From NCBI GenBank assembly GCA_003650675.1, contig QMRH01000012.1, positions 1-41,081 on the forward strand: a stretch of 41,081 nucleotides of DNA. Direction: 5' to 3'. The translations under genes were made by a program, and so were the position numbers. Below are positions 7,248 to 37,461 of the stretch, piece by piece (position 1 is the first letter of the stretch; every line of letters starts with the position of its first letter). This DNA comes from Thermoprotei archaeon. Its GTDB lineage: Archaea > Thermoproteota > Thermoprotei > Thermofilales > B20-G17. Under the pieces are notes generated by a model. The model did not search any database. It saw nothing but the letters and a program-made list of their open reading frames with translations, and was not told the origin of the DNA.

Positions 7248-7269
7248 TTTCTAATAGTTATTTTTGCTG

Positions 7270-19509: not shown

Positions 19510-21408
19510 CTAGAAAGGAATATAATATGGGCTTATCAGGGCTTTCTTTAGGAACAATATTATTACACCTAAACCTATTGCTAATCCTATACCGGCGTAT
19601 ATGCCGGCTACTATTACAAACCTGTTTTCGTTCCACCATTCATCGCCCATAAACTTTTTGGTGAGTCTAGCTATCACAATGCTAATAAGGAAGGATATTG
19701 CTACAGAGATCCAGGTCCGTGTCCCAGCTAATAGTGCAATACCCACAAGTGAGGGCGAAAGTTTGAGAATAACTGCCAGCACTGAAACCACGATTCCTGC
19801 AATGAAGCCTATGGAAATATCTTTGATGTTAAGGCTTAGGATGCTGTTTCCTCCGCCTACACCGGTTACAGCGGATATTAAGAGGTATTGTTCAGCTACT
19901 TGGACGGGGAAATTTATCATAGAAGCCGGGTAAGCTGAAGACGGTATAGGCGCCATCTTCCAAAAGACCTGCATATACAGGATTCCCATTATAGCTCCTA
20001 CAAACCATGCAAAGAACCATGCTTTAATATAGCTTCGAGGCTTCGTCTCACAGAGCAATGCTACCTTAAGTTGCTGCACTATGCCCACACCACCCGTATA
20101 AACGGTAAACCCTGCAGTTTGCGTAAACCAGAGTTTAGGATCACGGGCCCCAGTCAAGTACATTACCACTGGCACGAAGTAGGGGATATCAAAACTGAAA
20201 CCGTATTCGGCTAAAGCCCTTCCCTGTAGATGTGAAAACAGAAAAGACCATACTACTGATATTGACAGTATTAAAGGCAGATAAAATATGTTGAAGCCCG
20301 AGAGAACCCATGCTAGAAACGATGCAAGTATCGTCGAGGCGAAGAACAGGTATAATGCATACTTGGATCTAACGAACTCTACCCCAACAGTTCTCTTTCT
20401 AGTGAATTCCCTTATTGTACTTATAATATATTTTCTATAAAAGAAGATTTGTGCCAGAGCTATGGCTATTCCGAAGCCTATCGTAGGGTTTATCCAGAAC
20501 GAGATATAGGACCATGTATATATTTCACCTAAATTCATCCCTTTAATATACAATGGAAAGAGACCTCTCTTCACTAGAAGATTGTTGGCGAAAAGGTATA
20601 TGAAGATCGAGGAGATGGAGAGGAGTACTATAAAGGAGTGGGGCATAAAGAAGGCAAAGGTATATGACGCTAAGTCGGTGGATATTCCTAGACTTGCTCC
20701 AGGTAGAAAGTCTTCGATGAGTCTTGTGAAGTCATAGAATGGTATTGGTATCAATAAAATCCTATGGTCGGTCAACAATGGTATGACGTATGCCAATATA
20801 CCGTAGACTATACCAAGAATGGTTGTAGCCGTAAATATTCTCTTTTTAGAGGATTTGGGAACTACTAAGCTTAAAATAGTTTCCGCTGATACATTAGCCA
20901 AGGGGAAGGGTAATTTCTCTATTTCAATGAACTGGTGATAGAGGTAGACTCCGAGTGAGAAATCTATGATTTTCCCTAGGGTCCATGCAGAGAATAGTAT
21001 AAATATGGGTAGAATCCAGTCGTGGTGAAAGAATATTCTATGTTTGATGGCTGGAGAATACGGTGGAGGAGCCCACCAATCGGGGATAACTTTGTATAAT
21101 CCCAGATACTTTGCCATAGGATTTGACCGAAAATACATGTTTCCTATGAGTGCGAATGCTATGCTTCCTGTCACCGCTTCAGACGCTATAGAGTAAATTA
21201 TGAAAGCTTCTTGTTTGGTTAATGGTTTTTCCGAAAACTTGAAGATCTCTATGAAAAATATCAGGGAGATTATTGAGGCTGCGGATGAGAGGCTACCGCC
21301 CATTGTAAGTATGTAATATATGTTAGCTGGCAAAAGAATTAATATAACATAGAGTATCCCTATTAGAGATTTTACTGTGAAACCTTCCTTAAGAACGTCA
21401 TCCCTCAT
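19510..21408 (-). CDS. OPT-like multi-pass membrane protein (second of locus)
   Basis: A 632-residue integral membrane protein with roughly 14-16 hydrophobic segments and few soluble loops. A central loop reads HQFIEIEKLPFPLANVSAET (near residue 165), matching the E-x-LPFP motif of the oligopeptide transporter (OPT) superfamily, in which members take up peptides or metal chelates with protons. The OPT-like protein at 25953-27956 carries the same motif. A YPASMINFPVQVAEQYLLIS segment near 505 and a glycine-rich region after it also fit this fold. Start ATG; it overlaps the end of the upstream M28-FtsX gene by 11 bp, so it is the last gene of the five-gene minus-strand operon. The substrate is unknown. 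Confidence 0.7.
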   Translation of the reverse strand: MRDDVLKEGFTVKSLIGILYVILILLPANIYYILTMGGSLSSAASIISLIFFIEIFKFSEKPLTKQEAFIIYSIASEAVTGSIAFALIGNMYFRSNPMAKYLGLYKVIPDWWAPPPYSPAIKHRIFFHHDWILPIFILFSAWTLGKIIDFSLGVYLYHQFIEIEKLPFPLANVSAETILSLVVPKSSKKRIFTATTILGIVYGILAYVIPLLTDHRILLIPIPFYDFTRLIEDFLPGASLGISTDLASYTFAFFMPHSFIVLLSISSIFIYLFANNLLVKRGLFPLYIKGMNLGEIYTWSYISFWINPTIGFGIAIALAQIFFYRKYIISTIREFTRKRTVGVEFVRSKYALYLFFASTILASFLAWVLSGFNIFYLPLILSISVVWSFLFSHLQGRALAEYGFSFDIPYFVPVVMYLTGARDPKLWFTQTAGFTVYTGGVGIVQQLKVALLCETKPRSYIKAWFFAWFVGAIMGILYMQVFWKMAPIPSSAYPASMINFPVQVAEQYLLISAVTGVGGGNSILSLNIKDISIGFIAGIVVSVLAVILKLSPSLVGIALLAGTRTWISVAISFLISIVIARLTKKFMGDEWWNENRFVIVAGIYAGIGLAIGLGVIILFLKKALISPYYIPF

Positions 21409-24400
21409 ACTTCTCCCTCTCCTTAAGGGTTAACCCTCTCCATATTAGAAACTGTTTTCGAATATCATCTATAAGAAACATGGAAGATCTTCTCCAGGAT
21501 GAAATAGGTCCCTTCAAACAGTGGAGTTTGAGTATAAACTTAAATTGTTTTTCCCTACTCTTTACGGCCAGCAAATGCATTTCCTGTATTATACCAAGCT
21601 CATAAGGAGCCATCTGGAGCTCCACCTTCAGTATGGTAGCAGTTTTCTGGCGCTCAATGGAGGTTTTTAAAACGGAGTATTTTTCTCCCTCTCCATGGAT
21701 ATCAAGGTATTCTTTTATGAACTTCAGTATGGCATCCGCCTCCTGCCTACTTGTAATAACAAATGGTAGCGTTATGGTCCATTTATTTCCAACAGGTTTT
21801 GTTTCAGGCTTCCATCTTCTTTCAAGTGAAGGTGTAACCATTTTTGATGCCCTCCAAAGAGGATAGCTTGAGGCTAGAAGGGTGGAGGCTATCGAAAGTA
21901 GAGTAGAGTATACCGGTACGTTCACTGTATAACTCAGGTAGATTCCTGGAAGCAGATTGAAGATGTTTATCGTTTTCGCTAAAGCTATGCCAACAATGTA
22001 TCCTAGGACACCGCTAATTACGGAAAGTATTAAAGCCTCCATTAAAAACAGCCCTGAGACATGGTACGGGGATAACCCTAAGGCACTATATGTTTCGATC
22101 TCCTTTGATCTCTCATAGACATTTGAGAGCATTGAATTGAATATTATCAATATGCCTATGGCTATAGGTATGACAAGTTGTTCAGGTCTTTCAAAGACGT
22201 ATATGAGTGCACGGAAGTATTGATATACACTTTGGGTTTTCTTCGGAGTTAGTTGTGTAGCGTAAATGCTGTATGTTTCATTTAGATTTAACGTTAAGAG
22301 TCTTGCCGCTTTATCTAGCCAAGTATAGTCAAGTGGACGTACGGTGATTGCTAGGCTGTATATGTTGCCTCCAAGATCCCTAGCCAGTTTCGCAGGTATT
22401 ATCACTATAAAGTACCCGCGTTTTATCCTCCTATAAATAATGCTTGTAGGGATGTAGCTGAATAGCTTTATTTTCTCTCTTGTAGGCTTCTTAACCAGCC
22501 CCTTGAAGTCGATTAACGTGAAGTTTCCACCATCCAGATCTATCTTCGAACTAAATAGTTCGCCATCAATTATACCAACAACCTTTAACTTCAACGAGTT
22601 CGATAACTCGATGTATTCTTCACCTAAAGCTATTTTGGATAAATTTAAGTTAAGGTATTCTGCAGCAACGTCGTCCACTATACAGCTATAATAGTCGTCA
22701 TCATTGAACCACCTTCCCCGTGTTATTAAACCATCCACTCCGGTGACGCTTGCCTCCTCGGGTCCTAAGCCTAAAAATGCGCTCACATAGGCTTCAATAC
22801 TCATGTTTTTCGATCTTATTTTCAGCTCTTGCGGCGGATAATACCATATTCTTGATGAAATTGCAAATGTTCCATCAAGGTTTGATAAAAGTGAATATAT
22901 TTTTTCGATATATTTTTCAGGAATGGGTTGCCAAACCTGTCCTCTCACCAATATGCCAGTGTATGCCGGTGATGTATACGTATCTCTACTCACCACACCT
23001 AAAGTCAATGCCGGGAATGAAAATATTATCAATCCAAGTACAACGAGTATTAGTGTTGAGAAAAGTAGTATGCTTCTAGTCTTTCTTCTTCTAATGAAGG
23101 ATGAGCCAAGTGATATGGCTATAATTATTGCACCGCTACGGCTTATGCCAGCGAAATGCGGCCCCTTTAGTTTTTTCTTAAGGAAGCCTAGGGCATAAAT
23201 AAAGTCTGCGAAGGATAATAGTATTGCAGGCAACATTAAAACTGAGAGTAAGGCCCCTAGAAATAGTAGGAAAATATCCTCCATCAAGCCGAACGCCGGA
23301 TGTAGTACATATAGTACAGATAATGTAATGACGGAGAGTATAGATATTCTTATGATCTGTTGATTAGTGTTTTTCGACGAAAAGACTATTCTTTCAAGCA
23401 GGTAAATGAAGAACGGTAATAATATAAGTATGAACATGATCGATGCCTTTACATTTAAATCTTCATAGTATATTTTCTCGTGAACAACCCTGTTTATCTG
23501 CCATGACTCTATGGAGAATGTGATGAAAAAGTCGTATCTTAAAGCTTCGTATAGATATTTTCTTGCCTGGAGGATGTAATTACGGCTTCTCGTCATCAAA
23601 TCTTCGATTTCCAGGTTTTTGATGCCCTGTTCCTTCATTCGTAGATATCTTTCTAGATTTACATGGTATGTATCCTCCGCGATCCTTAGTGGAGTGAACT
23701 TAACGTGCTTTAAAATTCCGTAATTTACGGAAAAACCTTTACCCTGGTTATTAAGTATCAATAGGAATCTAGGTTCACCTTCCTTGGGGCTTCTCGAAAC
23801 CATGAACAGCTCTATGTTTACACCCGGCTGGAGGAAAACCATGAAGACCGGGTATCCTTCTTGGAACGAGGAGAATGTTGCACCATAAAATTGAGGCGAG
23901 GTATGGCTTGACGCCTCTAGGATTCTTATGTTATATATTGTTGGTATTGAAAGCGTTTCTGGCTCAATTATAAAGTAGAAAGCTATCGATCCACAGCGAA
24001 AAACGACGTGCGTCAGGTACTTTTCATCGCTGTTTATGGTGAAGTCAATATCTCTTCTATGTATACCGTAGTCTGTAAAGTATTCGATCTCTCCTTTATT
24101 GTTTAGGACTGCTGCTTCTATGATGTATTTGTATTCGATGGCGGGTAAATAGTCCGTACCTAGCCTAGCCGAGGAGGCTACTCCATGGAAAACAAATTCG
24201 CCGTTCTCATCTGTTAAATTCATTATGAAACCTGTCGTGGAGTAGTATCCTTCTGAATATGTTTCCTTGATTTTTGGTAAACCACCGTATAGGCCTAGAC
24301 CAAAGGAGTTCGGCATGCTGGCTACAACCCTTAACCTAACAATGGTGTTTGGGGCGGGGGTATACCATCCAGTACTTTGATTATATATTAGAACCTTACC

Positions 24401-25942
24401 TCTTACTGTGGAGAAGCCGCCATAGTTTGGATCAAAAAGCCTATATTTAGGCGGTTGAATTGTAAAATCTACGTCGTTTACAATGAAAGCTATTATTGAC
24501 GCCGCCTTATACAATATGTTTTCTTTCTGGGAGAGAATGTTCTTCCTGAATGCTTCTTCAAATTTAGGGTAGTTGTCATAGGGGGTTGTCCAATATAATT
24601 TCTGAGAAGGCACATAGATGGCTAATCCATATCCTCCTGCTAACGTGTATGCTTCGCTATCAAATATTGCCAGGGGGTCCCCGTACACTAAATTCAGCCA
24701 AGCGTATCCCGGATAAATAAAGTTGTCCACATTTGTGCTTTCACCATAGAGCTTGATTTTAAGTGTCTGTATATAATAGTTTAAGCGGTCAACAATCCCC
24801 GCCCTATAGAAATCAATACCCCTTGTAGGATTAAAGTAGAAGCGGCCAGCATGCAGTATCGCTATATCTGTCCCATAGGCTGATAGTGCAAGGTATATTA
24901 GGAGCCTAATATTCATGTCATCTGATGTAATAATCCTCTGTACAAATTCTCTGGCCCCGGCAAGCCCCTCCCAGTGCCCGGAGAAGCCTACAAAAAGTAA
25001 CGATTTTCTCGGCCTATTTTCTGAGAAAAACTTCGCTAACTCGAGTAGCATACTTATACCCAACGATTCATCGGCTCCAGGGGATAACGCCGGGATAACC
25101 GAAAAAGAATCGTAGTGTGCTGATAATACTATCACTTTATCTGGTAAGCTGGATCCTTTAATAAACCCTATAACGTTAAACGCTTTTACGCTCTTCCAAG
25201 CATAGTTGCCGTTGATTTTACCTCTAACTAAGGCTCCTTTTTCGAGTGCAGATAATATGGTTTTTATGTCGTTAAATTTAGCGTAGAATCTCGGGATACT
25301 AAGGGGGATGGAAACGTATTGTCCCTCAACGTTCATTCTAGTGAACTCTGTTACCGTGGAAGCTCCCGTAGTACTTTCGAATTCATAAGGTTCCACGAAG
25401 ATAAAGGCCTTCGGTGGACCAAGCATAACACCATATTTAAGCCAATTCATTCCCGTCTTAAAATCTAGTAAAACTATCTTATCGCTTAAATTTAAACCGT
25501 TATAGTCCACTAGCTCTCCTAACCTTACGTAAACTAAGTCACCTTCTATGGACTGGTTTCCCCCAGTCATAAATCCATTCGGCAACAAGGGATATATTTT
25601 AACACTTACCACGCGTTTATCAATTGTCACGGTGAGACTGTATTCACCTATTGGCGATAAAACTGTAAAGTTTTGAAGGTAAACTTTATCTGTATATTGT
25701 TTAAAGTAGCTAAAAATGTAGTTTGTGGCATTATAGTATCCGCTGTAACCTGTAACTCTAGAGCCAAGCGATGAAAAGAACATTACATGTCTCAATATAT
25801 TGGATGAACTATCATCAAGGAACTCCCTTATTCTTTCTATTTCAGCGGTATAATCTATTGGTATAGAAGATACACCAGATAGGAAAACTAGGTCTAGAAA
25901 AAGGATACTTAAAAATAAAAAACCTTTATATTTTTTCTTCAT
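21398..25942 (-). CDS. giant membrane protein: M28-like ectodomain plus FtsX-like permease
   Basis: About 1514 residues. After a signal peptide (KKKYKGFLFLSILFLDLVF), residues about 60-400 form an M28 peptidase-like domain with SAHYDSFSV near 275 and SPGADESLGISML near 288. The usual catalytic EE pair is replaced (FSGHWEGLAG) and the later Asp strand is missing (IYLALSAYG), so zinc catalysis is doubtful. Then come Ig/transthyretin-like beta regions (to about 800), several membrane spans (830-960), a MacB-core-like outer domain (near 990-1230), and an FtsX module (NSMLSNVYERSKEIETYSAL, ALGLSPYHVSG, YIVGIALA near 1270-1380). A soluble tail of ~140 residues follows. The frame opens at GTG 25951, but AGGGTGG precedes ATG 25942. 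No ABC ATPase, the usual FtsX partner, is nearby. Confidence 0.78.
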   Translation of the reverse strand: MKKKYKGFLFLSILFLDLVFLSGVSSIPIDYTAEIERIREFLDDSSSNILRHVMFFSSLGSRVTGYSGYYNATNYIFSYFKQYTDKVYLQNFTVLSPIGEYSLTVTIDKRVVSVKIYPLLPNGFMTGGNQSIEGDLVYVRLGELVDYNGLNLSDKIVLLDFKTGMNWLKYGVMLGPPKAFIFVEPYEFESTTGASTVTEFTRMNVEGQYVSIPLSIPRFYAKFNDIKTILSALEKGALVRGKINGNYAWKSVKAFNVIGFIKGSSLPDKVIVLSAHYDSFSVIPALSPGADESLGISMLLELAKFFSENRPRKSLLFVGFSGHWEGLAGAREFVQRIITSDDMNIRLLIYLALSAYGTDIAILHAGRFYFNPTRGIDFYRAGIVDRLNYYIQTLKIKLYGESTNVDNFIYPGYAWLNLVYGDPLAIFDSEAYTLAGGYGLAIYVPSQKLYWTTPYDNYPKFEEAFRKNILSQKENILYKAASIIAFIVNDVDFTIQPPKYRLFDPNYGGFSTVRGKVLIYNQSTGWYTPAPNTIVRLRVVASMPNSFGLGLYGGLPKIKETYSEGYYSTTGFIMNLTDENGEFVFHGVASSARLGTDYLPAIEYKYIIEAAVLNNKGEIEYFTDYGIHRRDIDFTINSDEKYLTHVVFRCGSIAFYFIIEPETLSIPTIYNIRILEASSHTSPQFYGATFSSFQEGYPVFMVFLQPGVNIELFMVSRSPKEGEPRFLLILNNQGKGFSVNYGILKHVKFTPLRIAEDTYHVNLERYLRMKEQGIKNLEIEDLMTRSRNYILQARKYLYEALRYDFFITFSIESWQINRVVHEKIYYEDLNVKASIMFILILLPFFIYLLERIVFSSKNTNQQIIRISILSVITLSVLYVLHPAFGLMEDIFLLFLGALLSVLMLPAILLSFADFIYALGFLKKKLKGPHFAGISRSGAIIIAISLGSSFIRRRKTRSILLFSTLILVVLGLIIFSFPALTLGVVSRDTYTSPAYTGILVRGQVWQPIPEKYIEKIYSLLSNLDGTFAISSRIWYYPPQELKIRSKNMSIEAYVSAFLGLGPEEASVTGVDGLITRGRWFNDDDYYSCIVDDVAAEYLNLNLSKIALGEEYIELSNSLKLKVVGIIDGELFSSKIDLDGGNFTLIDFKGLVKKPTREKIKLFSYIPTSIIYRRIKRGYFIVIIPAKLARDLGGNIYSLAITVRPLDYTWLDKAARLLTLNLNETYSIYATQLTPKKTQSVYQYFRALIYVFERPEQLVIPIAIGILIIFNSMLSNVYERSKEIETYSALGLSPYHVSGLFLMEALILSVISGVLGYIVGIALAKTINIFNLLPGIYLSYTVNVPVYSTLLSIASTLLASSYPLWRASKMVTPSLERRWKPETKPVGNKWTITLPFVITSRQEADAILKFIKEYLDIHGEGEKYSVLKTSIERQKTATILKVELQMAPYELGIIQEMHLLAVKSREKQFKFILKLHCLKGPISSWRRSSMFLIDDIRKQFLIWRGLTLKEREKYEG

Positions 25943-25952
25943 TTTTTCCACC

Positions 25953-27956
25953 CTAGATGGAAGCGAGGAAGTTTGCTAGGCCTGCAATCCATATTATGAA
26001 TAAACCGGCCGAGATTCCAATGATTATTCCTATTATAATGTCCATTGTTTTCTTGTATAGTTCTGCCCCTCCTATCCTTATAATTGTTCGTTTAACTATC
26101 CATGCTATGAAGAATGAGGTCCACCAATAATAGGTGTAGAAGCTTCCGCCCAGTATGTATCCTATTGGATTAAGGGGGAATCCGGGCCTAACAGCTCGTA
26201 GGTAAAGTAATATCATTACAATTATTATACCAAGGAGTGTTTGAGGAAGATATGGCGTACTTAGCTGCACGTTCAATGGACTGATATTTGTATAGTATAA
26301 AGTTAAATCCCTTGTATAGGCCTCTCCAAAGAGGTCTCTGATCGTGCTGTGGTAAAGATATATTAGGTTCTCGATACCGTACGTGTGGAAGGTCCATAAG
26401 GTCAACGGGAATGCTATTAAGATGGCCACGACTAGGGCTATTGCCTGAAATATGAAAGTTTTCTTTTCATCTAAATTATATTCGCTACATACTTTGTGGC
26501 ATTCTACTCTAAATACTAGAGGATTCCAGGCCATGGTGTTTCCGTTTAAAACAATGTTGTTTTGAAGGCTTATGAAACACTGTTGGGAGGGGGTTGGGCT
26601 TGGTCTTGGATTGAATAGCCCTAAAGCTCCCCCAATATCGTAGAATAATGCTAGGCTGAACAGTCTATTTGAATTACCTCCGATAACTAGTCCGTCTAGG
26701 GGATTTCCACCGCCAGATGCACGTATAACACACATGCCTATCGACGATAATAGGAGTATAAGTAGGGTAAAGAATACCATTACTAGGGGTTCTCCAGATA
26801 GCAAAAGTAGCGAAGAAACCGTTGTTATCGATACGACAAATAATATTATATACAACCTCGACGCTGCATCTCTTCTGGATTCTCCAAGTAAGTTTTTAGT
26901 TATATCTTTTATTGTACGCCAGTTGTAGATTAAGTAGAATAAGGCTAGCCCGTAGATTCCTCCTATGAGGGTTAAAGCTTCGGTACGCCAGAAACCGTAA
27001 GCGGGTGAGATCGTCATATCCCATGCGTATCCTTGGCTGGTAGCGTACTCTCTGAATCTCTCAGGATGCAAGAAGTATATGTCTACTGCGGGTAGCACCA
27101 CCATGTAGAAAATAAATGTAAGCCATTGCGTGAAGAGTACATCTATCGGAAGTAGGTATGCAAACGAGAACATTAGTGGATGTAGTGTTGTTTGGAGGAC
27201 GGAACCCCTAAGAACATACCTGGCTTCGGGGAAGATGTCCAGCCAGTCGATGCTAAACATTGCTGAAGGTGACGGCAGGAAGCTGGGATTGTTTAGTATA
27301 GTGTTTATAATGTCAGGTAACATGAACAAGAATGCTAGTATAAAGCCTCCGATAAACCCTGTGCTCTTCAGGAACCGTTTTGATCCCGGTTCTCCTTCTT
27401 CACCTATGATGGACAATGGAATGGTGGTCACGGGGAAAGGTAGTTTCTCCATGTCGACAAAGATTTTTTCGAATACAGGTGAAATAGATAGGAGTAGAAA
27501 CTCCCAGGAGAAGGCTAATGAAACCCAGTAGAGTAGAGGCGTGAGCCATATGTTCCAGGGGGTAAATGTTTCTCCGAGAAAAATCCCTCGCAACACTAGG
27601 GTGCTCTTGGGAGTCCAGAACTCTGGTACCCAATTAATCACCATCGACTTCAGCCGTGGGATATACGCAGCCCCGGTGGCCTGTGCCAGCCAGAAGGCTG
27701 GGATAGCACCCCATCCTAGAGACATAACAACCATGCTGTATATTAACGCTATTTCCCCTTTAGAGAAGTTAACAAGTTTCGAGGAACCTATTGCGCTGAG
27801 AACGAAAGTTATTAGTATGGGGGCCAGCAGGCTCACAGGAAAATCCGCGGCTGGGACTATTATCCATAGGGTGCTGTTCACAACTGTTAATACTACCACC
27901 AACAGCAATCCTACTATAAATGCTTTCGTGTAGTTGCCTCGAAATTCACCCTTCAT
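25953..27956 (-). CDS. OPT-like multi-pass membrane protein (DUF6785-type)
   Basis: A 667-residue polytopic membrane protein with about 15 hydrophobic spans. The loop IFVDMEKLPFPVTTIPLSII (near residue 168) is the OPT-superfamily E-x-LPFP motif shared with the paralogue at 19510-21408. Other family-like segments are FWLAQATGAAYIPRLKSMV near 88 and YAWDMTISPAYGFWRTEALT near 320. A Cys pair (CHKVC near 475) sits in a long loop. Start ATG with GGGGGA five to six bases upstream, immediately after the stop of the upstream secreted-protein gene, and 1 bp before the M28-FtsX gene follows. It is likely to be a transporter; the substrate could be peptides, glycopeptides or oligosaccharide-related compounds. 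Confidence 0.7.
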   Translation of the reverse strand: MKGEFRGNYTKAFIVGLLLVVVLTVVNSTLWIIVPAADFPVSLLAPILITFVLSAIGSSKLVNFSKGEIALIYSMVVMSLGWGAIPAFWLAQATGAAYIPRLKSMVINWVPEFWTPKSTLVLRGIFLGETFTPWNIWLTPLLYWVSLAFSWEFLLLSISPVFEKIFVDMEKLPFPVTTIPLSIIGEEGEPGSKRFLKSTGFIGGFILAFLFMLPDIINTILNNPSFLPSPSAMFSIDWLDIFPEARYVLRGSVLQTTLHPLMFSFAYLLPIDVLFTQWLTFIFYMVVLPAVDIYFLHPERFREYATSQGYAWDMTISPAYGFWRTEALTLIGGIYGLALFYLIYNWRTIKDITKNLLGESRRDAASRLYIILFVVSITTVSSLLLLSGEPLVMVFFTLLILLLSSIGMCVIRASGGGNPLDGLVIGGNSNRLFSLALFYDIGGALGLFNPRPSPTPSQQCFISLQNNIVLNGNTMAWNPLVFRVECHKVCSEYNLDEKKTFIFQAIALVVAILIAFPLTLWTFHTYGIENLIYLYHSTIRDLFGEAYTRDLTLYYTNISPLNVQLSTPYLPQTLLGIIIVMILLYLRAVRPGFPLNPIGYILGGSFYTYYWWTSFFIAWIVKRTIIRIGGAELYKKTMDIIIGIIIGISAGLFIIWIAGLANFLASI

Positions 27957-27957
27957 G

Positions 27958-29910
27958 TTAAATCCCCCTTTTTCTGAAATATTCTATAGACATACCGAAG
28001 ATTATGGCAATATACAGGGTGACAATAAATAATAAAGGAATATATTCCGGTAGTGCCATGCCGGCGACAAACGAAAGCATTATTTTCGCATATCCCGTGG
28101 ATCCAGCCACAGCCCTTACTTCCAGAACATTGTCCTTAAATGTATAATCGAATCCCTCTACGCCACGAATGTTGTTTATCTTTACGTATGCTGGCGGTCT
28201 ACTTAAACCGGTTATTCTACATACTATTAGGGTTCCTGGGGATGCAGATATATTAGCCAATATTTTATCTTTATCGACTAGAGGAGACGCCGTTAATGTT
28301 CCATTAGTACCGAATACCATTTCATCGATTACAGCAATGTTTACGTGTATTGTTACGTTTTCCTCCCTTGGAGAAACTACAAGTGTTTTTGAGCCTACTT
28401 TAAGGTCGTTCCAGAACACCATTATCTCTCTTTTTCCTAGCGTAAGGTTCAATAAAGCATTACCTAAAGCATTTGTTACGTTCATTTTACCTTCATCGCT
28501 AATGATTTTTAGGCCGGAAAGAGGGTTGCCTAAGATATCTTCGACTTTAAAAACGTAGATCGAAAATGTTTTTCTTTCCAAAACCACCCTCGGGATATCT
28601 GCTTCCACGAGAAGAGGCTGTTTCAGCATTTTCTCGTATTGATACATTTTGCTGTAATCGTTGCTCGTAAGTCTCTCGCTTTTATCTATTATTATGAAAA
28701 ATTTTACGGGGTTCTTGTAAGTCCCTGGGCCTACAACCTGGGTTCTAGTATCGGGGTTTCTTGTGTCCTTTATGTAGTCAAGACATCCTATATTATACCA
28801 GTGTTCTTTAACCAAGTCGAATACAGGATACTCCGGTATCACGGCTATAGCATCCGAAGGATTATTTCGGGTTATATCTATCTCCCAATATGCTTCATTG
28901 AAATCTACTCCAACTCCACCCCGATCCACCGACTTCGTTACGGATCCCTGATAAATTGTTCTATCAGACTGTAAAACAACGAAGTCATACCAACTAAATC
29001 TCGGAAACTGGAATTGGATGGGTCTAAAGTCATTAGCCTTTATAACAGTCTTCAACGTGACATTCTGTATTATTGTGATAACCGGAGAGTATGCACTAAA
29101 TATCCAGGTAGTCTCATATTCTCCGACACCCACATCCTTTTTTGAGACGTCTACAATTGGTCCCCAAAACTTTATATGTACGGCGATGGGCCCCAACGCG
29201 AGTATCTTGTAATTTATCTTCTTTGTATTAAAGACTTGGGAAAGCCACGTGTTCGAATAGTATATGAAAGCTCCTCCGCCGCCACTTCCATGGACGTATT
29301 TGGTTCCACTTCCAGCTTTATGTATAAGAGAAGTCATCCATCCACCTAAGCTCGAGTCCACAGTCACATTATAGAAGCTGTTTTCGACGTTTACTCCCCC
29401 GGTCTTGGTCTCAACGTACTTTAAATCAGTTTTATAGATTTTAAGTGGATCCTCTACCGTTTCGGGATCCTTTGCTCCGAAGAAGACGTAGTAAATAGCG
29501 TGGCTGTTTTTCGATATATTAGCTAAAAAGTATATGTTAAATGAAATGGTATTATTTTTGTAGAAAATTACATCACCTGTCTGACTTGGAACCTCTACTA
29601 GGACCCCGTTTTCCTCCTTAACCACCCTGACGTCTCTTATGTAAGCTACTCCACCATGTTTGGAGGAGGAGGGGCCGGTAATATACTCCACTTTTACTGC
29701 ACCTACATCTATCGGCGGGGTGCGAACTATAACTAGTTCTAGAGTTCTATCTATACCCGCAGTTTCAGCGAGCTTTATAACCCCTTTATATTTATACTCC
29801 TCATACTTCCCCTGAGGAGTTGCCGAAACTGAATATAGGGGGGTGAAAACTACACTACTATAAGAAGAAATAATAACTATAATTACTAGGTAGGAAAAAA
29901 ATTTGTTCAG
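27958..29910 (-). CDS. secreted, C-terminally anchored beta-sandwich protein, CTG start
   Basis: The mature protein has a mutarotase-like beta domain (ENSFYNVTVDSSLGGWMTSL, TWIFSAYSPVITIIQNVTL), followed by carboxypeptidase-regulatory-like Ig regions (LGNPLSGLKIISDEGKMNVT). It ends LPEYIPLLFIVTLYIAIIF, FGMSIEYFRKRGI: a PEY motif, one membrane span and a basic tail, reminiscent of archaeosortase sorting signals. The first ATG, GTG or TTG in frame is the GTG at 29691, but coding text continues upstream through a full signal peptide (NKFFSYLVIIVIISSYSSVV) to a CTG at 29910. That CTG follows GGAGGTGA by 6 nt, with the upstream stop codon inside that ribosome site. I therefore start at CTG (650 residues). 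It is probably extracellular, binding or processing a carbohydrate or glycopeptide. Confidence 0.72.
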   Translation of the reverse strand: MNKFFSYLVIIVIISSYSSVVFTPLYSVSATPQGKYEEYKYKGVIKLAETAGIDRTLELVIVRTPPIDVGAVKVEYITGPSSSKHGGVAYIRDVRVVKEENGVLVEVPSQTGDVIFYKNNTISFNIYFLANISKNSHAIYYVFFGAKDPETVEDPLKIYKTDLKYVETKTGGVNVENSFYNVTVDSSLGGWMTSLIHKAGSGTKYVHGSGGGGAFIYYSNTWLSQVFNTKKINYKILALGPIAVHIKFWGPIVDVSKKDVGVGEYETTWIFSAYSPVITIIQNVTLKTVIKANDFRPIQFQFPRFSWYDFVVLQSDRTIYQGSVTKSVDRGGVGVDFNEAYWEIDITRNNPSDAIAVIPEYPVFDLVKEHWYNIGCLDYIKDTRNPDTRTQVVGPGTYKNPVKFFIIIDKSERLTSNDYSKMYQYEKMLKQPLLVEADIPRVVLERKTFSIYVFKVEDILGNPLSGLKIISDEGKMNVTNALGNALLNLTLGKREIMVFWNDLKVGSKTLVVSPREENVTIHVNIAVIDEMVFGTNGTLTASPLVDKDKILANISASPGTLIVCRITGLSRPPAYVKINNIRGVEGFDYTFKDNVLEVRAVAGSTGYAKIMLSFVAGMALPEYIPLLFIVTLYIAIIFGMSIEYFRKRGI

Positions 29911-29916
29911 GTTTCC

Positions 29917-31089
29917 TCACCTCCTCCTCTTTGCAATAAACCAACCTACCACAAGTCCGACGATTAAACCAACGACTAACCCTATTATAGTTGAACTGGT
30001 CTGTACTTGCTGAAGCTGAGCCTGGGTGACCGTGTATTTCGACTTGTAATCTGAGTACTCTTGTTCAAGAGCTTGATACTGGTTTAAAAGGCTCTGATAT
30101 TCTTCATTGGTGTATGAGTGTGTCGATACGTATTCTGTATACTTCTTCTGGAGGGCTACTACTACGTTTTGGTCATAATAGTACTGTATATTTCTTAAGA
30201 GGCCTGCAATTTTCCTTACTTCATGGTAGTCCCCTGGACCAGCCCATATTATTGCATAGTTGACAAATGTTGTACCTGCTGGAAACACTTTTCCAGCCGG
30301 ATATTCAAACCACTTCGCATATAGGGATACTACTGACCATATGGCTCCATCCCATGCTCCTACAGTGGATTTTTCTCCTATGAAACTTTCAGGGTTAAAC
30401 CATATCACGCCTGCAGCCAGGTTTTGGGTTGGATTATATATTGCAACCCAGTCTTCGGCTAAAGGCAAGGTACCTTCCGAGGAATTTCCAAGGGTGACTG
30501 CAGCCATGCTTCCGTTAAGTGTAATAGATTTTAGAGTACCGTAGTAGTCCACGTAAAAGACTTTAGCGCCTGAAGTTGCTAGTGTTGCAGGTACAAATTC
30601 GGCCCCTATGGACGTTAAATTCATCGGGGAAAGGAGTGTTGCAGAGTATCTCACTAAGATTATTTCACCATCAGTAAAGAAGTATGTTATTTCGAATTTA
30701 ATGTTATTATTTAACGTTGTAACATTCAATACAGCTAGGTCATCTGAAACCATCTTAAATGCTACTGAAACGTTTGAGACATCTACACCCCATCTTGAGG
30801 AAACCCATCCAATGTCAGGACCCGTTGCAGTGATCTTTACATCGTCTACAAAGTCGACACCGGGTATTTTATGGTTCCTAAGGTCTATCAAACTAGCTCC
30901 CTGGGTTCCCTCAAAATAGCAACTAATATACGTGTTGTTTATCCAAAAGCTTTTAGTTGTCTCATTAACCCACTTGAAAACTATTTTTCCGTTACCAGGT
31001 GATGCTCGGACGTCAATATTGAACGTTAGTGGTAATAGTGTAAACAGCATTGCAACAATTATTATACTGCTTGTTAATCTTTTGTTCAT
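29917..31089 (-). CDS. secreted membrane-anchored protein with coiled-coil stalk
   Basis: First gene of the five-gene minus-strand operon. It has a signal peptide (MNKRLTSSIIIVAMLFTLLP), a beta-sandwich ectodomain of ~290 residues, a Gln/Tyr-rich coiled-coil stalk (EYQSLLNQYQALEQEYSDYK), and a C-terminal span with small residues and Arg tail (GLVVGLIVGLVVGWFIAKRR). The ectodomain shares order and wording with the sensor at 31267-32637: AAGVIWFN, SLYAKWFE and WAGPGDYHEVRKIA correspond to ILGVIWDL, SIYAKWVE and VGKGDWTSI, so it is probably a mutarotase-like sugar-binding fold. The frame is open to a TTG at 31131, but that adds a non-signal leader, so the ATG at 31089 is chosen. It could be the substrate-binding protein of the system. 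Confidence 0.75.
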   Translation of the reverse strand: MNKRLTSSIIIVAMLFTLLPLTFNIDVRASPGNGKIVFKWVNETTKSFWINNTYISCYFEGTQGASLIDLRNHKIPGVDFVDDVKITATGPDIGWVSSRWGVDVSNVSVAFKMVSDDLAVLNVTTLNNNIKFEITYFFTDGEIILVRYSATLLSPMNLTSIGAEFVPATLATSGAKVFYVDYYGTLKSITLNGSMAAVTLGNSSEGTLPLAEDWVAIYNPTQNLAAGVIWFNPESFIGEKSTVGAWDGAIWSVVSLYAKWFEYPAGKVFPAGTTFVNYAIIWAGPGDYHEVRKIAGLLRNIQYYYDQNVVVALQKKYTEYVSTHSYTNEEYQSLLNQYQALEQEYSDYKSKYTVTQAQLQQVQTSSTIIGLVVGLIVGLVVGWFIAKRRR

Positions 31090-31266: not shown

Positions 31267-32637
31267 ATGGAAGGATTGAAGGATATGGAACCATTACTGG
31301 ATGAAATAGATAGGAGAATACTAACAATACTGATGAATAACGGCAGGATATCTTTAATCGATATTGCAAGGGAACTCAAAGAATTGGGTTTCGATGTTAC
31401 AGTAACTACGATTAGGAGGAGAATGGAAGCTCTGGTTAAAAAAGGCATAATAAGGAAATTTACTGTTCAACTTGATGCCAGAAAAGTCAACTTTAACTAC
31501 CTTGCTCTCATGGAGATAAAAATAGATCCCTCAATGCTCTCGTTAGTAGCTAGAAACCTTGCGTCAATGTATGAGATAATTGAACTTTATATTCTTGAGG
31601 ATGAATCTAATATTTTTGCTAAGGTTCGATGTAGGTCCTCAGAGGAGCTTGTGAAGTTCATTGAAAAACTTTCAAGTATACCCTATATTAAAGACCTGAA
31701 ATCAAGACTTGTTTTACGGCCTGTAAAGGAGGAAGACAATTTTATTCCCTTGTTAAAGGAGGCCCGTGCAAGAATCTTCGATTTCGATGAAGACGGGATA
31801 GATGAGATTGTTTTAGAGAACGATAAAGTCCTTCTCTCAATAAAGCCGAACTCTGGTGGCAGGATAACAGACTTAGTATACAAGGAGAGTGGAGCAAATG
31901 AGGTGTACCCTACCCTTGGTATACTGTTTGACAATTTTGTAGAGGAAGGATGGGGTGTATACCTCTATAACAGTAAATATGATTATAAGGTGAAAAGGAT
32001 CTCTAATGGGGGTCTAGAAATCCATTTAAACACGTTGCTAAATGGAAGATACCTTAAGAAAATAATGTTGGAAAAAATAATTTCTCTTGACCCGAGAGAA
32101 CCCGTAATAGATGTTAAATACAAGGTAACGAATCTAAGCGAAAAAACTCAAAGGATTACACTATGGGTTTGCAACTATCTAAATATAGGTGGAAGTGTAG
32201 GGTCTGAAGACTGGATGTATCTACCCGTAGAGAACGGTACATTTGTAGAGCAGTTTAAGCCTCTATATTCCGGGATAACGTGGACCACGTTATATACAGA
32301 TAAAATAACCGAAGAATACAAGCAAGTTTACAATAGAAAACACACCCAGCTAAGCGACGAGAAAATAACTAACGGCTGGGCTGCCTACTACGACCAGGTG
32401 ACCAAGGAGATTCTAGGAGTGATATGGGATTTAAAGGAAGTTGCGCTTGTTAAAAGGTTTTTCAGTCCATCCTATTATTCAATTGAGTTAATCTACACCA
32501 CGAAAACCCTAGATCCTAAGGAATCAAAAGAATATGGGTTAATGTTCATTGTAGGAAAAGGAGACTGGACAAGTATCTATGCCAAGTGGGTGGAAAAATA
32601 CAGCCAAAATTACTATTCCATCAATACTTCAACATAA
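31267..32637 (+). CDS. Lrp/AsnC-type regulator fused to a sugar-binding-type sandwich domain
   Basis: The first ~75 residues are an Lrp/AsnC winged helix: LDEIDRRILTILMNNGRISL, then IARELKELG and TTIRRRMEALVKKGIIRKFT. Residues about 75-150 form an Lrp-like ligand or RAM half. From about 175 to the end (456 residues) there is a beta-sandwich of galactose-mutarotase type: VLLSIKPNSGGRITDLVYKE, VIDVKYKVTNLSEKTQRITL, EILGVIWDLKE, GKGDWTSIYAKW. The same elements occur in the secreted protein at 29917-31089 next to it. This suggests a one-component transcription factor sensing carbohydrate in the cytosol. It is divergent from the operon and overlaps the end of the GH94 gene by 25 bp tail to tail. 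ATG at 31267; an ATG at 31285 is also possible. Confidence 0.78.
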   Translation: MEGLKDMEPLLDEIDRRILTILMNNGRISLIDIARELKELGFDVTVTTIRRRMEALVKKGIIRKFTVQLDARKVNFNYLALMEIKIDPSMLSLVARNLASMYEIIELYILEDESNIFAKVRCRSSEELVKFIEKLSSIPYIKDLKSRLVLRPVKEEDNFIPLLKEARARIFDFDEDGIDEIVLENDKVLLSIKPNSGGRITDLVYKESGANEVYPTLGILFDNFVEEGWGVYLYNSKYDYKVKRISNGGLEIHLNTLLNGRYLKKIMLEKIISLDPREPVIDVKYKVTNLSEKTQRITLWVCNYLNIGGSVGSEDWMYLPVENGTFVEQFKPLYSGITWTTLYTDKITEEYKQVYNRKHTQLSDEKITNGWAAYYDQVTKEILGVIWDLKEVALVKRFFSPSYYSIELIYTTKTLDPKESKEYGLMFIVGKGDWTSIYAKWVEKYSQNYYSINTST

Positions 32638-34970
32638 TGTACTTTTCCGTCGGAAAACACGGGTACTATATTTGACTGTATCTCCGTACCATCCACCTTT
32701 ACGGCTTTTACTCTCTTATCATACTTATTCGTCTTTTTCACATCTATTTCATACACGGATCCTCTGAAATATCTTCTTATTTTAAACCCGCTCCACGAGG
32801 ATGGGATGCACGGATCAATTAACAGTCCATTATAGGTTGGCCTTATCCCTAAAATATAGTCTACAACGGCCCTTAGGCTCCATGCGGCTGAGCCTGTAAG
32901 CCATGAGTTCCATCCTTCTCCAAAGGATACGGAATCGGGACCTGAAATCCACTCAGATGTAACGTATGGCTCAGTTTTAGTCTTATTTACTTTTAGTCCC
33001 CTATAGGCTGGACAGGTTTTCTTGTATATGTTGTACGCCTTCCTATTCCTCTTTAAAAGGCATTCCGCGATTATCATCCATGTAACTGCATGCATGAATA
33101 TTCCCCCATTTTCTTTGGCTCCGGGGGCGTATCGAGTTATATATCCTAGTGTTTTATCCGGGGTTTTGTAGGCGGGCAGGAAAAGTGCTGGACCGTACTC
33201 GGTGTCCAGCAGTTTTTCGGCTGCCCTTATTGCCTTCAAAGCCTTTTTAAGGGGAGCTATACCGGAGATGACGGCCCAGCTTTGTGCGTTAAGAAATATC
33301 TTGCCTTCACTATTTCTACTGCTTCCTATGGGCTCCCCGTTATCCCTGAAACCCCTAACATACCATTCTCCGTCCCAACATATCTCGTTAAATTTTCTCT
33401 TAAGATCTCTTGCCTTTTCTTCATAGAAGGATGCCTCCTTGTCCTTTCCAATCAATCTACAGAGCTGGGAAAACTCTCTTAGAACAAGGTATAGAAACTC
33501 GGCCATCCAAGAGCTTTCTGCACCACCATTCCCTACAAATCCTATGGCGTTGAAGCCGTCATTCCAGTCGCCGCCGAGGAAAAGAGGCAGTCCTCTTTTA
33601 CTGAGATTCCTCAGGCTTCTATCGATAGCAAGCTTTATGTGGGTGAAAAGAGTAGCTACTCCTCCATCGTAGAAAGGAACATTCTCATCCAGTATACTAT
33701 AATCACCTGTCTCCTTAATGTAGTTTATAGTTATAAACGCCAGCCATAGAGGTGTATCAGCGTGCTTAGACTTCATACCTTTATCGTTTATTTCATGCCA
33801 CCCATGGAGCACGCTTCCATCGGAGAATTGGTGTCTAGCATGCTTCAATATTTGTTTCTTGGCCCAATTATAGTCTACAAGCAATAGTGTCAAAACATCT
33901 TGAAGTTGGTCTCTAAAACCATATGCGGCGGCCTGCTGGTAGTAAGATACCCTAGACAATATCCTGCTACTTATGGTCTGGTACTTATACCAGTAGTTGA
34001 CCAGAAAGTTGATGAATTTATCGGGGGTTTCTACGGTTACCTTGGAAAGAAGTTTATCCCACCATTCCTTAACATGCTCCAGTTCTTTTAGAGCCTCCCT
34101 TAGATCACTATACTTCTTTGCATAGCGATAGACTTCTTTTTCATCCTCTGAAACTCCAATGAATATGGTAAACGTTTTTTCTTCGTGAGGCTTGAGAGGA
34201 ATGAGGTATTTGAAAACTCCTGCAGGTTCAAATCCTCTTCCACTAGTTTTATGGCATGTTCCCGTTTTAACGCAAACAGGGTTTTTAAGGGATCTTCCTG
34301 CTCCAATAAACTTTTCTTTACTACCTTCAAAACTTTCTGGCGCTATAGAGCTCGATAAAAATGCCACATAATCCCAGGACCTGTTCCAGCTTCCGTCAAA
34401 CCCCGTCCAGAAAGTTTTTGTGACGAACATAATGTTATCTTTAACCCATAGATCGTAGAATAGGGAATGGAATTGTCTATCAATATCATATATTGTGCCA
34501 AGCCACCACTCAAGATAGGTGTAAAGCTCTAGTTTCCTCGTCCTATCTGTTCGGTTTTTTATTTTCACGATCCATACTTCCAGGGGGTCTTCTCTAGGAA
34601 CAAAGAAGGTAATCGTGGATTCGATATCTTCGTAGAGGCTTTGGATTACAGTATATCCTAATCCGTGGCGACAAACATACTCGTCTAGTTTCCTTATTGT
34701 AGGCTTGTATGTAGGCGACCAGTATTTGCCGTTTTCCAAGTCCTTTAGGTAAATATATCTTCCATCGAGGTCTTCAAATACGTTTTGACTCCACTTAGTT
34801 ACTCTGTTTAAATTACAGTCTATATACCAGCTAAACCCCCCACCAGTATGCGACAATATAACCCCATACCTACCGTTCGATAAAATGTTTACCCATGGTC
34901 TCGGCAAATCATACGTAGTTATTATAAATTCTTTTCCATCATTTGAAAAATAACCATATTTTTTTGCCAT
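32613..34970 (-). CDS. GH94 family glycoside phosphorylase
   Basis: A cytosolic enzyme of family GH94, which cleaves beta-linked disaccharides or oligosaccharides (cellobiose, chitobiose, laminaribiose or sophoro-oligosaccharide type) with inorganic phosphate to give a sugar-1-phosphate. Conserved signatures include YGFRDQLQDVLTLL near residue 350, the motif around the catalytic Asp GGDWNDGFNAIG near 468, GGAESSWMAEF, ENGGIFMHAVTW near 621, and SEWISGPDSVSFGEGWN followed by WLTGSAAWSLRAV near 690. The N-terminal beta-sandwich (DLPRPWVNILSNGRYGVILS) is normal for the family. At 785 residues it is close to the cellobiose-phosphorylase length. No signal peptide. Start ATG. Its 3' end overlaps that of the sensor gene by 25 bp. 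The exact linkage cannot be read from sequence. Confidence 0.9.
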   Translation of the reverse strand: MAKKYGYFSNDGKEFIITTYDLPRPWVNILSNGRYGVILSHTGGGFSWYIDCNLNRVTKWSQNVFEDLDGRYIYLKDLENGKYWSPTYKPTIRKLDEYVCRHGLGYTVIQSLYEDIESTITFFVPREDPLEVWIVKIKNRTDRTRKLELYTYLEWWLGTIYDIDRQFHSLFYDLWVKDNIMFVTKTFWTGFDGSWNRSWDYVAFLSSSIAPESFEGSKEKFIGAGRSLKNPVCVKTGTCHKTSGRGFEPAGVFKYLIPLKPHEEKTFTIFIGVSEDEKEVYRYAKKYSDLREALKELEHVKEWWDKLLSKVTVETPDKFINFLVNYWYKYQTISSRILSRVSYYQQAAAYGFRDQLQDVLTLLLVDYNWAKKQILKHARHQFSDGSVLHGWHEINDKGMKSKHADTPLWLAFITINYIKETGDYSILDENVPFYDGGVATLFTHIKLAIDRSLRNLSKRGLPLFLGGDWNDGFNAIGFVGNGGAESSWMAEFLYLVLREFSQLCRLIGKDKEASFYEEKARDLKRKFNEICWDGEWYVRGFRDNGEPIGSSRNSEGKIFLNAQSWAVISGIAPLKKALKAIRAAEKLLDTEYGPALFLPAYKTPDKTLGYITRYAPGAKENGGIFMHAVTWMIIAECLLKRNRKAYNIYKKTCPAYRGLKVNKTKTEPYVTSEWISGPDSVSFGEGWNSWLTGSAAWSLRAVVDYILGIRPTYNGLLIDPCIPSSWSGFKIRRYFRGSVYEIDVKKTNKYDKRVKAVKVDGTEIQSNIVPVFSDGKVHYVEVLME

Positions 34971-35160
34971 AATCTAAACCCTGGATGCATTTTTTTGACG
35001 TAGATATTTCAAATTTTTCATTTAAATTTTTTACTTTTACTTGAGGGGTTGGTTGACATATTTTATCATTAAAGTAAATAAAAATAACGTTCTTTTGGCA
35101 GATAATTGCATAGAAAAGTTAATTTTTTAGATCTCCGCTTTAATTAAATTGGGAGAGTTA
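34971..35160. promoter_or_regulatory. AT-rich divergent region between the GH94 and glycoamylase-like genes
   Basis: This 190 bp between two divergent carbohydrate genes is very AT-rich, with TTTAAATT-like TATA candidates on both strands (near 35017-35030 for the GH94 gene and 35137-35147 or 35119-35128 for the other). No clear palindrome was found. Both genes may share control by the sensor at 31267-32637. Confidence 0.35.
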
Positions 35161-37461
35161 ATGCTGTATGTAGATGTAAAAATATTTTTGTTGGTTCTCC
35201 TGCTTTTAGTGTCCTCCCTCGGCATCGGTAACCTTTATCTGGTTAAAGGGGATCCCGCTTCTCTCGAACTTAACAAAGAGTTTAGAGAATATCTTCTTGA
35301 ACTTGCTAGGGATACATGGAACTTCTTTGTAAGATATACGAATAATGATACAGGTCTTCCATACGATAGAAGTACTCCGGGAAATCCTCAGACCTCAATC
35401 ACAAATATAGGTCTCTACATGGCTTCGGTGGTGGCTGCCTGGGATCTCGGTTTTATAAACAGAAGTGAGGCTTTACAGCGGCTTAGAAAAACGATCGATA
35501 CCCTTTTTAAGCTGGAGAAATGGCATGGAATACCCTTCAACTGGTATGATGCAGATACTCTGAAACCTATATGGGGGAACTTTGTTTCGTCCGTGGATGC
35601 TGGATGGTATGCTGCTGGACTTATAGTTGCGCGAAGCGCGTTTCCAGAGCTATATGACAACTTAACTGCATTAATAGACATGATGGAGTGGGATAGGCTA
35701 TACGATCCCGATGCAAAGCTACTTTACATAGGATTTGATAGTTTAAAGAGAAAATATACACAGGCACATTATGATTACATTACGATTGAATCGAGGATGG
35801 CTAGCTTCATCGCCATAGGCACGGGTAAAATTCCCGCGGAACATTGGTTTGCATTGAAACGGGATCTACAGTACTTTTACAATATTTCTTTTATGTGGGG
35901 CTGGAACGGAGGCCTCTTCATCTACTATATGCCAGGTATATTTATAGATGAGAGGGGTTCATCCATCGCCAACTCCGCGATAAACGTCACCCTGGCCCAA
36001 ATAATGTTATCTGAATTGTCAGGATACCCGGTTTGGGGCTTCTCCCCCTCCGATATACCGCAAGGAGGCTATGGAATGAAATTCGATGTAGTCACTCCCC
36101 ACGCATCTGTTTTAGCACTAATATATTTCCCTGAGGAAACCCTACTGAACCTCCTTAAACTCGAAAAAATGGGGGTAAGATCAACCTATGGATTCAAAGA
36201 TTCCGTAAGCATGGCCGACGGGTCGGTTGATGAAGATTATCTAGCTTTAGATCAAGGCATGATCTTTTTAACTATAGCAAACTATCTCAATAACAGTATA
36301 TGGAAGTTTTTTGAGAAGGATCCGATAGCCGTTAAGGCACGAAAACTAGTTGGAGAATACAATGTGCCGGAAAGCATGCTTAAACTATATAGATTTATCT
36401 TTGTGAACGTCTCCAACATTGTTCTGGAAAAGCTCCTGGAAGAAAAGCCAGTGTTCTCGGCCATAAGGACCCTGCGGCTAGCTAAACTTTACTTCGCTTC
36501 TGGAGATCACGAAAAAGCATGGTATTATGCAAATAAAACCCTGGAAGAAATAAACAGTGCCGACGTCAACTCCGTCAAGAACGCTGTCTCCAAGATTTTG
36601 GCTGAAGCCGAGAACTCCATACTTTCTGCACGAAGGGAAAATAGAACCTCGAAGATTGCTAAGGCAGCGTCTCTCTACAATAGCTCGCTCACGGAGTTTA
36701 ACGAGGGGAAATACACGTCATCGTTTATCGATGCGGTAGTTGCAAAGTTCTATGCAAAGATATCGCGTCCAACGGTGGTTATGAAACGCGTTAAATTGAC
36801 TTTGACTTCAGATAAGGAAAAATACATCTTTCCCTGCAACGTAACGTTAAGGGGTACCATAAACCCCCGTCTACCAGTAAACATTATAATCGAGAGCTAT
36901 AGCAGGGGATCCTGGAAGGTCATTGCAATAGTAAAAGCTGATAAGAACGGCGTATTCACCTTCACATGGCAACCTGAATCCGGGAACTACACGGTCAGGG
37001 CAAGGTCTACAAGCTACAACTATTATTTACCCTCACAGTCGAACCATATAAAAATAAGTGTCCTCAAGGGGGAAAGAAAGCTTCGATTAAATTACACGAA
37101 AACAGCATATGTGAACGAAAATGTGTCAGTAACCGGCGAAATAGATCCTCCAGATGAGGCAGAGAATGTTTCCGTAAAGATAGTAAATCCCAAGGGCCAG
37201 GTATCCCACACTACTGTAGATGTTAAAAACGGGGCCTTCGCTTTGTCCATTAAACCCACTTTAGCTGGGTTATGGAACATAACGGTAACAATACCTGAAA
37301 CAGAAAACTATAAGGGGGTAAGTAAAACTCTCTCCATAAATGTTGTAGAAAAGGGTGGTTTAAACCTCGAGAATATAATTACAATAGTATTCCTGGCGGT
37401 AATTTTGCTGATATCGGCGATGGTGTTTAAACTCGGGAAGAACCTAAAACTCAGCCCCTAA
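35161..37461 (+). CDS. secreted, anchored glycoamylase-like (GH144-type) enzyme
   Basis: A signal peptide (MLYVDVKIFLLVLLLLVSSL) is followed by an (alpha/alpha)6-type catalytic region (about 35-420) with the glycoamylase/GH144 pattern: TSITNIGLYMASVVAAWDLG, FNWYDADTLKPIWGNFVSS, SVDAGWYAAGLIVAR, YDYITIESRMASFIAIGTGK, YGFKDSVSMADGS and LALDQGMIFLTIANYL near 380. Then come a helical linker and two Ig-like domains (about 555-725). A C-terminal span (IITIVFLAVILLISAMVFKL) anchors it outside the cell. GH144 members are endo-beta-1,2-glucanases. The frame is open to a TTG at 35149, but GGGAGAG precedes the ATG at 35161. With the divergent GH94 phosphorylase it forms a degrade-outside, phosphorolyse-inside pair. 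The exact linkage is inferred. Confidence 0.72.
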   Translation: MLYVDVKIFLLVLLLLVSSLGIGNLYLVKGDPASLELNKEFREYLLELARDTWNFFVRYTNNDTGLPYDRSTPGNPQTSITNIGLYMASVVAAWDLGFINRSEALQRLRKTIDTLFKLEKWHGIPFNWYDADTLKPIWGNFVSSVDAGWYAAGLIVARSAFPELYDNLTALIDMMEWDRLYDPDAKLLYIGFDSLKRKYTQAHYDYITIESRMASFIAIGTGKIPAEHWFALKRDLQYFYNISFMWGWNGGLFIYYMPGIFIDERGSSIANSAINVTLAQIMLSELSGYPVWGFSPSDIPQGGYGMKFDVVTPHASVLALIYFPEETLLNLLKLEKMGVRSTYGFKDSVSMADGSVDEDYLALDQGMIFLTIANYLNNSIWKFFEKDPIAVKARKLVGEYNVPESMLKLYRFIFVNVSNIVLEKLLEEKPVFSAIRTLRLAKLYFASGDHEKAWYYANKTLEEINSADVNSVKNAVSKILAEAENSILSARRENRTSKIAKAASLYNSSLTEFNEGKYTSSFIDAVVAKFYAKISRPTVVMKRVKLTLTSDKEKYIFPCNVTLRGTINPRLPVNIIIESYSRGSWKVIAIVKADKNGVFTFTWQPESGNYTVRARSTSYNYYLPSQSNHIKISVLKGERKLRLNYTKTAYVNENVSVTGEIDPPDEAENVSVKIVNPKGQVSHTTVDVKNGAFALSIKPTLAGLWNITVTIPETENYKGVSKTLSINVVEKGGLNLENIITIVFLAVILLISAMVFKLGKNLKLSP

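Follow-up and report, generated by a model that had tools for sequence, protein, structure and literature searches.

A conserved archaeal gene trio linking two OPT-type carriers to a giant pseudo-peptidase FtsX protein: a candidate oligosaccharide importer

Two carriers, OPT_A and OPT_B, and a giant M28-FtsX protein, M, are on the sequence evidence encoded by a conserved, co-inherited and co-evolving three-gene unit, and the status of this trio as a functional unit is well supported. One copy lies in the window analysed here, a stretch of 41,081 bp that is one whole contig (C12) of the host genome (G000; 2.07 Mb, 149 contigs), whose nearest named relatives are the 'Thermoprotei archaeon' MAGs from Guaymas. 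We put the probability that OPT_A, M and OPT_B assemble into a single membrane complex for oligosaccharide import at about one half. More tentative is the proposal that they represent a new importer class, in which a heterodimeric OPT secondary carrier would be obligately coupled to a tethered pseudo-peptidase receptor with an FtsX mechanotransmission module, energised in trans, and which would provide a major, multi-copy oligosaccharide route across thermophilic archaea. The uptake systems of uncultured archaea (Bathyarchaeota, Brockarchaeota and relatives of Thermofilales) are not reliably readable from genomes, and the trio genes are currently annotated either as 'unknown' or as 'peptide transporter'.

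The locus consists of five closely packed minus-strand genes, as the earlier note had described. The first, sand1 (31089-29917, ATG start), encodes a secreted beta-rich protein with a coiled stalk and a C-terminal TM helix, and sand2 (29910-27958, CTG start) a secreted, C-terminally anchored beta-sandwich protein; both are accessories. The core components follow: OPT_A (27956-25953), a DUF6785+DUF6784 carrier; M (25951-21398), of about 1,500 aa; and OPT_B (21408-19510), an OPT-superfamily carrier (PF03169) and by gene order the ortholog of Smar_1400. Successive genes are separated by gaps of 6, 1 and 1 bp, and M and OPT_B overlap by 11 bp. The likely start of sand2 is an in-frame CTG at 29910 (29910-29908) behind a strong GGAGGTGA ribosome site. 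The start chosen by the ORF finder, GTG 29691, is internal, and the signal peptide, which is lost if that codon is used, was missed because the finder is limited to ATG, GTG and TTG starts. Beside these genes are a divergent Lrp/AsnC-type regulator (31267-32637, plus strand), whose fused C-terminal domain resembles that of 4-alpha-glucanotransferase and whose homologues adjoin other trios; a cellobiose-phosphorylase-like GH94 phosphorylase (32613-34970, minus strand); and a large Glycoamylase (PF10091)/DUF3131 protein (35149-37461, plus strand) that matches the middle domain of cyclic beta-1,2-glucan synthase and endo-beta-1,2-glucanase. The latter two are context genes.

A Peptidase_M28 search of the host genome identified five giant M genes in total. 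The four outside the window belong to paralogous cassettes, all of which contain OPT_B and three of which contain OPT_A; one (L009) has five genes in the same order as the window, including two secreted anchored proteins. A wider scan of 84,980 species left 80 kept loci, from Thermoprotei, Thermofilaceae, Brockarchaeota, Bathyarchaeota, 'Thaumarchaeota' MAGs, Calditenuaceae, HR02 and Alkanophagales. After removal of near-duplicates (<60% identity kept) and restriction to loci with at least 4 kb on both sides (n = 27), the distance to M is at most 4 kb for OPT_B in 26/27 and for OPT_A in 23/27. The possibility that the genes are not found together in other genomes is thereby decisively contradicted, and the earlier note's suggestion of an unrecognised conserved system stands. 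Since the genes occur as A-M-B, A-B-M, M-B-A and in divergent forms, it is the linkage of the trio that has been kept and not the fixed gene order that the note had proposed to look for. Nor has the five-gene set been kept: sand1 and sand2 are lineage-specific, and the machine of five genes that the note envisaged contracts to a conserved unit of three.

The three genes are also inherited together. Of 41 related genomes, 18 carry M (E<=1e-100), the very same 18 carry OPT_B (E<=1e-20), and OPT_A is present in 17 of those plus one more. Across the phylum, 398 genomes were sampled: 52 (18 families) encode M, 51 OPT_B and 52 OPT_A; 48 genomes have all three and 56 at least one, against 6.8 co-occurrences expected per pair (Fisher 1e-53 to 1e-60, uncorrected for shared ancestry). 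Pairwise distances of the three proteins are correlated, their trees mirroring one another (Mantel r 0.84-0.87 for 36 triplets, 0/5000 permutations). Six Calditenuaceae-type genomes have one M plus one adjacent OPT_A-OPT_B pair, which is located far off or on another contig.

Profile search assigned no domain family to sand1 or sand2 of the window. The relatives of sand2 among 101 genomes are one close (73%, in G002) and one weak; in G002 a sand1 homologue accompanies it in the same order, and no direct sand1 relative was found in Staphylothermus. At paralogous positions in L009 and L012 there are secreted anchored proteins matching DUF4861 (PF16153) just above the cut-off of 22.3 bits (L009_426, 22.8; L012_507, 25.7; L012_518, 23.6), a cut-off that window sand2 does not reach. 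Fold matches of sand2 to GH38 mannosidase, aldose epimerase and PL26 lyase are hints only, because the model is of low confidence (pLDDT 43).

Family profiles bear out the domain calls of the earlier note for both carriers and for M. OPT_B matches PF03169 at 39.9 bits (cut-off 25.8) over profile positions 8-620 of 623, which places it in the OPT superfamily, while OPT_A scores 104.9 bits with DUF6785 and 63.6 bits with DUF6784. Alignment of the two family profiles (hhalign: 99.2%, E 1.4e-19, 524 columns) indicates homology between OPT_A and OPT_B over most of the length of both; PF03169 is also matched by two further OPT_A paralogues, in one case above and in the other below the cut-off. Both carriers have the E-x-LPFP loop noticed earlier, as IEIEKLPFP and VDMEKLPFP. 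Searched by sequence profile against the PDB, neither gave a match. To our knowledge, characterised OPT proteins transport peptides or metal chelates, never sugars, which counts against an oligosaccharide substrate. The literature searched contained no report of an OPT carrier with partner subunits and nothing on DUF6785, DUF6784 or DUF4861.

M scores 48.4 bits with M28 (cut-off 21.3) and 64.9 bits with FtsX (PF02687). It is predicted to begin with a signal peptide and a pseudo-M28 domain (residues ~45-500), continue with beta domains and a helical stalk (~513-830), and then span the membrane with seven TM helices, with a MacB-like outer domain (~985-1247) and a cytosolic C-terminal alpha/beta domain (1375-1517); signal peptide and helices were placed by hydrophobicity averaged over the alignment. 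The M28 fold is supported by a profile match to aminopeptidase 2ek8 (E 2.8e-17). However, in an alignment of 69 full-length M proteins the metal/catalytic set (His, Asp, Glu-Glu, Asp, His) is not kept. The first His is retained in 39/69, the last is replaced by Glu (E433) in 64/69, and the Glu-Glu pair has Glu at neither position in any protein, mostly being His-Trp instead. Judged by these residues the M28 domain is a pseudo-peptidase. Its pocket appears remodelled rather than decayed, since D281 is invariant (69/69) and E433, H326 (55/69), W327, Q328 and D431 are mostly conserved. Active peptidase processing by M is rejected on the absence of the catalytic Glu-Glu in 69/69, which leaves the processing arm of the earlier proposal (uptake or surface processing, likely of a glycan or glycopeptide) unsupported as far as M28 is concerned; uptake is still probable, and so are glycans as the substrate.

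The membrane part of M is predicted to have an FtsX/MacB/LolCDE-like fold. A model of residues 500-1517 (mean pLDDT 82, pTM 0.71) matches 5xu1, LolE and MacB in Foldseek with E values of 1e-8 to 3e-10, as well as other type VII ABC permeases. The motif ER..E...S..GL.P, with R1281, G1292 and P1295 invariant in 69/69, lies between the last TM helices, and we take it for the coupling motif, the part of MacB and LolCDE in contact with the ATPase. The cytosolic C-terminal domain gives weak StART-like matches (E ~0.04-0.09). Searching plasmids for M returned generic M28 or FtsX fragments only. Further M copies in the host are found at C54:3-2927, C9:78-2120 and C22:17663-18199, two of them cut by contig ends and one decayed (five stops). 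There is also a wider set of giants (970-1,800 aa) whose similarity to M is confined to the FtsX half (G000:C20:18221-19774 and 25020-27086, C9:6285-8345; and G016:C2, G020:C2 and G019:C2, with 1,800-aa frames); one, on C20, adjoins an M cassette.

No ABC ATPase gene was found in the window locus, the ATPase at 37813-40236 being a CopA-type P-type pump, and M is not encoded with a cognate ATPase as a type VII ABC permease would be. The earlier note's statement that no ATPase is present is therefore right for the locus but does not extend to the genome: M retains the FtsX docking motif, and MacB-type ATPases are encoded elsewhere. The host genome has 39 LolD-type matches, three of them close to the MacB/LolD type. 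Two of these three are 65-75% identical to ATPases encoded ~3 kb from the Staphylothermus trio and ~5 kb from the OPT_A-OPT_B pair of one Calditenuaceae genome, the only places in which such genes lie near trio genes. Because one of the two host MacB-type ATPases and the Staphylothermus ATPase pair have short FtsX neighbours of their own, any effect of theirs on M in trans is conjecture.

On another host contig (G000:C48, L121) a MacB-type ATPase without an FtsX neighbour adjoins a Yip1 protein, a pairing shared only with G002. Homologues of the Yip1 protein occur in 10/18 trio genomes versus 2/23 others (one incomplete genome, one spurious match). The two were considered as the missing energiser and dropped as a firm link, being adjacent only in G000 and G002. 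Opp/Dpp ABC partners, suspected from gene lengths beside the Calditenuaceae M, were discarded, since the genes there encode oxidoreductases and a membrane protein and no ABC components. Calditenuaceae-type M genes (L033, L035, L040, L041, L050 and L066) are followed by a fixed unknown pair, a 339-aa membrane protein and a 296-aa protein.

Neighbour genes, picked by nearness to trio loci, are mainly glycan genes. Glycan-active enzymes touch 3/5 host cassettes, namely those of the window, L009 (GH15, with a TrmB-like regulator grouping together with the L034 TrmB) and L012 (GH130). L010 adjoins a galactokinase-like gene, identified from its N-terminal sequence. In L019 a GH130 gene is in the same operon, together with an AsnC-type regulator, and other loci have GH10 (L024), GH53 (L043), GH106 (L070), an apiosidase (L032) and GH42/GH3/CBM (L038). 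Gfo/Idh/MocA dehydrogenases and URO-D proteins recur near trio loci. Counted against the glycan reading are PmbA/TldD-like peptidases and a nucleoside phosphorylase (both at L011), RuBisCO/IF-2B (L067), URO-D and radical SAM proteins. PmbA/TldD peptidase pairs are present on the contigs of 2/5 cassettes, at 7264-9977 of the window and at L011:14725-17579 (the latter from N-terminal sequence).

The cultured REPRESENTATIVE makes the trio testable. Its genome (G213, a single contig of 1,570,485 bases) carries M, OPT_A and OPT_B as Smar_1398, Smar_1399 and Smar_1400, counted from the glycogen synthase Smar_1393 in the numbering of PMC2678158; we take G213 to be S. marinus, an identification that rests partly on this numbering. 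The assignment of OPT_B fits, because Smar_1400 is the only OPT 'peptide transporter' listed for S. marinus (PMC2678158), and Smar_1400 is the only one of the three genes found in the literature. The next gene, 85 bp downstream of OPT_B, encodes a GH57 glycosidase whose N-terminus has a signal-like stretch.

That annotation, the description of S. marinus as a peptide fermenter (PMC2678158), which we count against oligosaccharides, the peptidase pairs of the window and L011, and the ancestry of OPT and M28 all speak for a rather unlikely alternative, in which the same complex of three would take up peptides or glycopeptides, with the pseudo-M28 domain as a peptide receptor of peptidase descent and OPT keeping its classic substrate. 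Against it, peptidase neighbours are few, and glycoside hydrolases, phosphorylases and sugar regulators recur, in S. marinus as in the host cassettes with glycan-active enzymes. Clearly unlikely is that the trio works outward, as an export or surface-assembly machine moving, for example, glycan or lipid-linked units by LolCDE/MacB-like mechanotransduction. LolCDE and MacB, which the FtsX part of M resembles, do act outward; the StART-like match and the glycogen synthase beside the Staphylothermus trio would also suit such a role. However, the CAZyme neighbours are mostly degradative and include glycoside phosphorylases, which need imported substrate, and the patchy spread in multiple copies is easier to reconcile with nutrient uptake than with a housekeeping role in the envelope. 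Less probable again is a general receptor-coupled OPT platform with no common chemistry, its substrate varying by cassette (sugars, peptides, nucleosides, cofactors) as the mixed neighbours might suggest (GH families, URO-D, nucleoside phosphorylase, RuBisCO/IF-2B, peptidases), for sugar genes are the most consistent theme and the unrelated neighbours may be incidental.

Under oligosaccharide import, complex formation, the receptor role of M and an ATPase in trans are predicted, and the substrate, direction and energy source of the trio are what we infer. OPT_A and OPT_B would pair as a heterodimeric secondary carrier. The ectodomain of M would serve as a membrane-tethered receptor, catching the glycan fragments that secreted glycosidases release and handing them to the carriers. 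Capture would be coupled to release through a conformational change of the FtsX type, powered by a housekeeping MacB-type ATPase in trans or by the carriers alone. Breakdown would be completed inside the cell by phosphorylases and hydrolases (GH94, GH130, GH15), sand1 and sand2 may be extra surface binding proteins, and the paralogous cassettes may differ in substrate. For the window, the enzymes encoded there point to beta-linked gluco-oligosaccharides of the cellobiose or sophorose type. If the proposal is true, a trio that occurs in several copies per genome and in 18 archaeal families of one phylum explains glycan uptake by many of them, annotations such as that of Smar_1400 need correcting, and an OPT carrier is coupled with both an ABC-type mechanotransmitter and a former peptidase that has become a receptor.

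The trio has partial counterparts among known systems. M shares with type VII ABC permeases (FtsX, MacB, LolCDE) the fold of TM helices and outer domain and the predicted ATPase-docking motif; it differs in its three additional TM helices, its ectodomain of 800 residues and the cytosolic domain, and in being linked to secondary carriers and not to an adjacent ATPase. The ADOP 'duplicated orphan permeases' (TIGR03434) are also FtsX permeases without an adjacent ATPase gene, but M is not duplicated, has an M28 ectodomain and OPT partners, and matches their model only weakly and partially (31.9 bits against a cut-off of 622.3). Nicastrin, nicalin and the transferrin receptor, in which an M28-fold ectodomain without catalytic residues is a receptor or scaffold, are profile matches of the M ectodomain; their membrane part, partners and organisms are different. 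The proposed scheme would by analogy recall TRAP transporters, binding-protein-dependent secondary carriers in which a receptor feeds the carrier, although no homology to TRAP parts was seen and the M receptor would be tethered and of M28 ancestry. With the OPT/YSL oligopeptide transporters, for which the barley YS1 structure is available (PMC9691689), the affinity lies in the Pfam score of OPT_B, its alignment with OPT_A and the common loop; what sets the trio apart is the obligate pairing of two homologous carriers, both with one another and with a giant protein at the surface.
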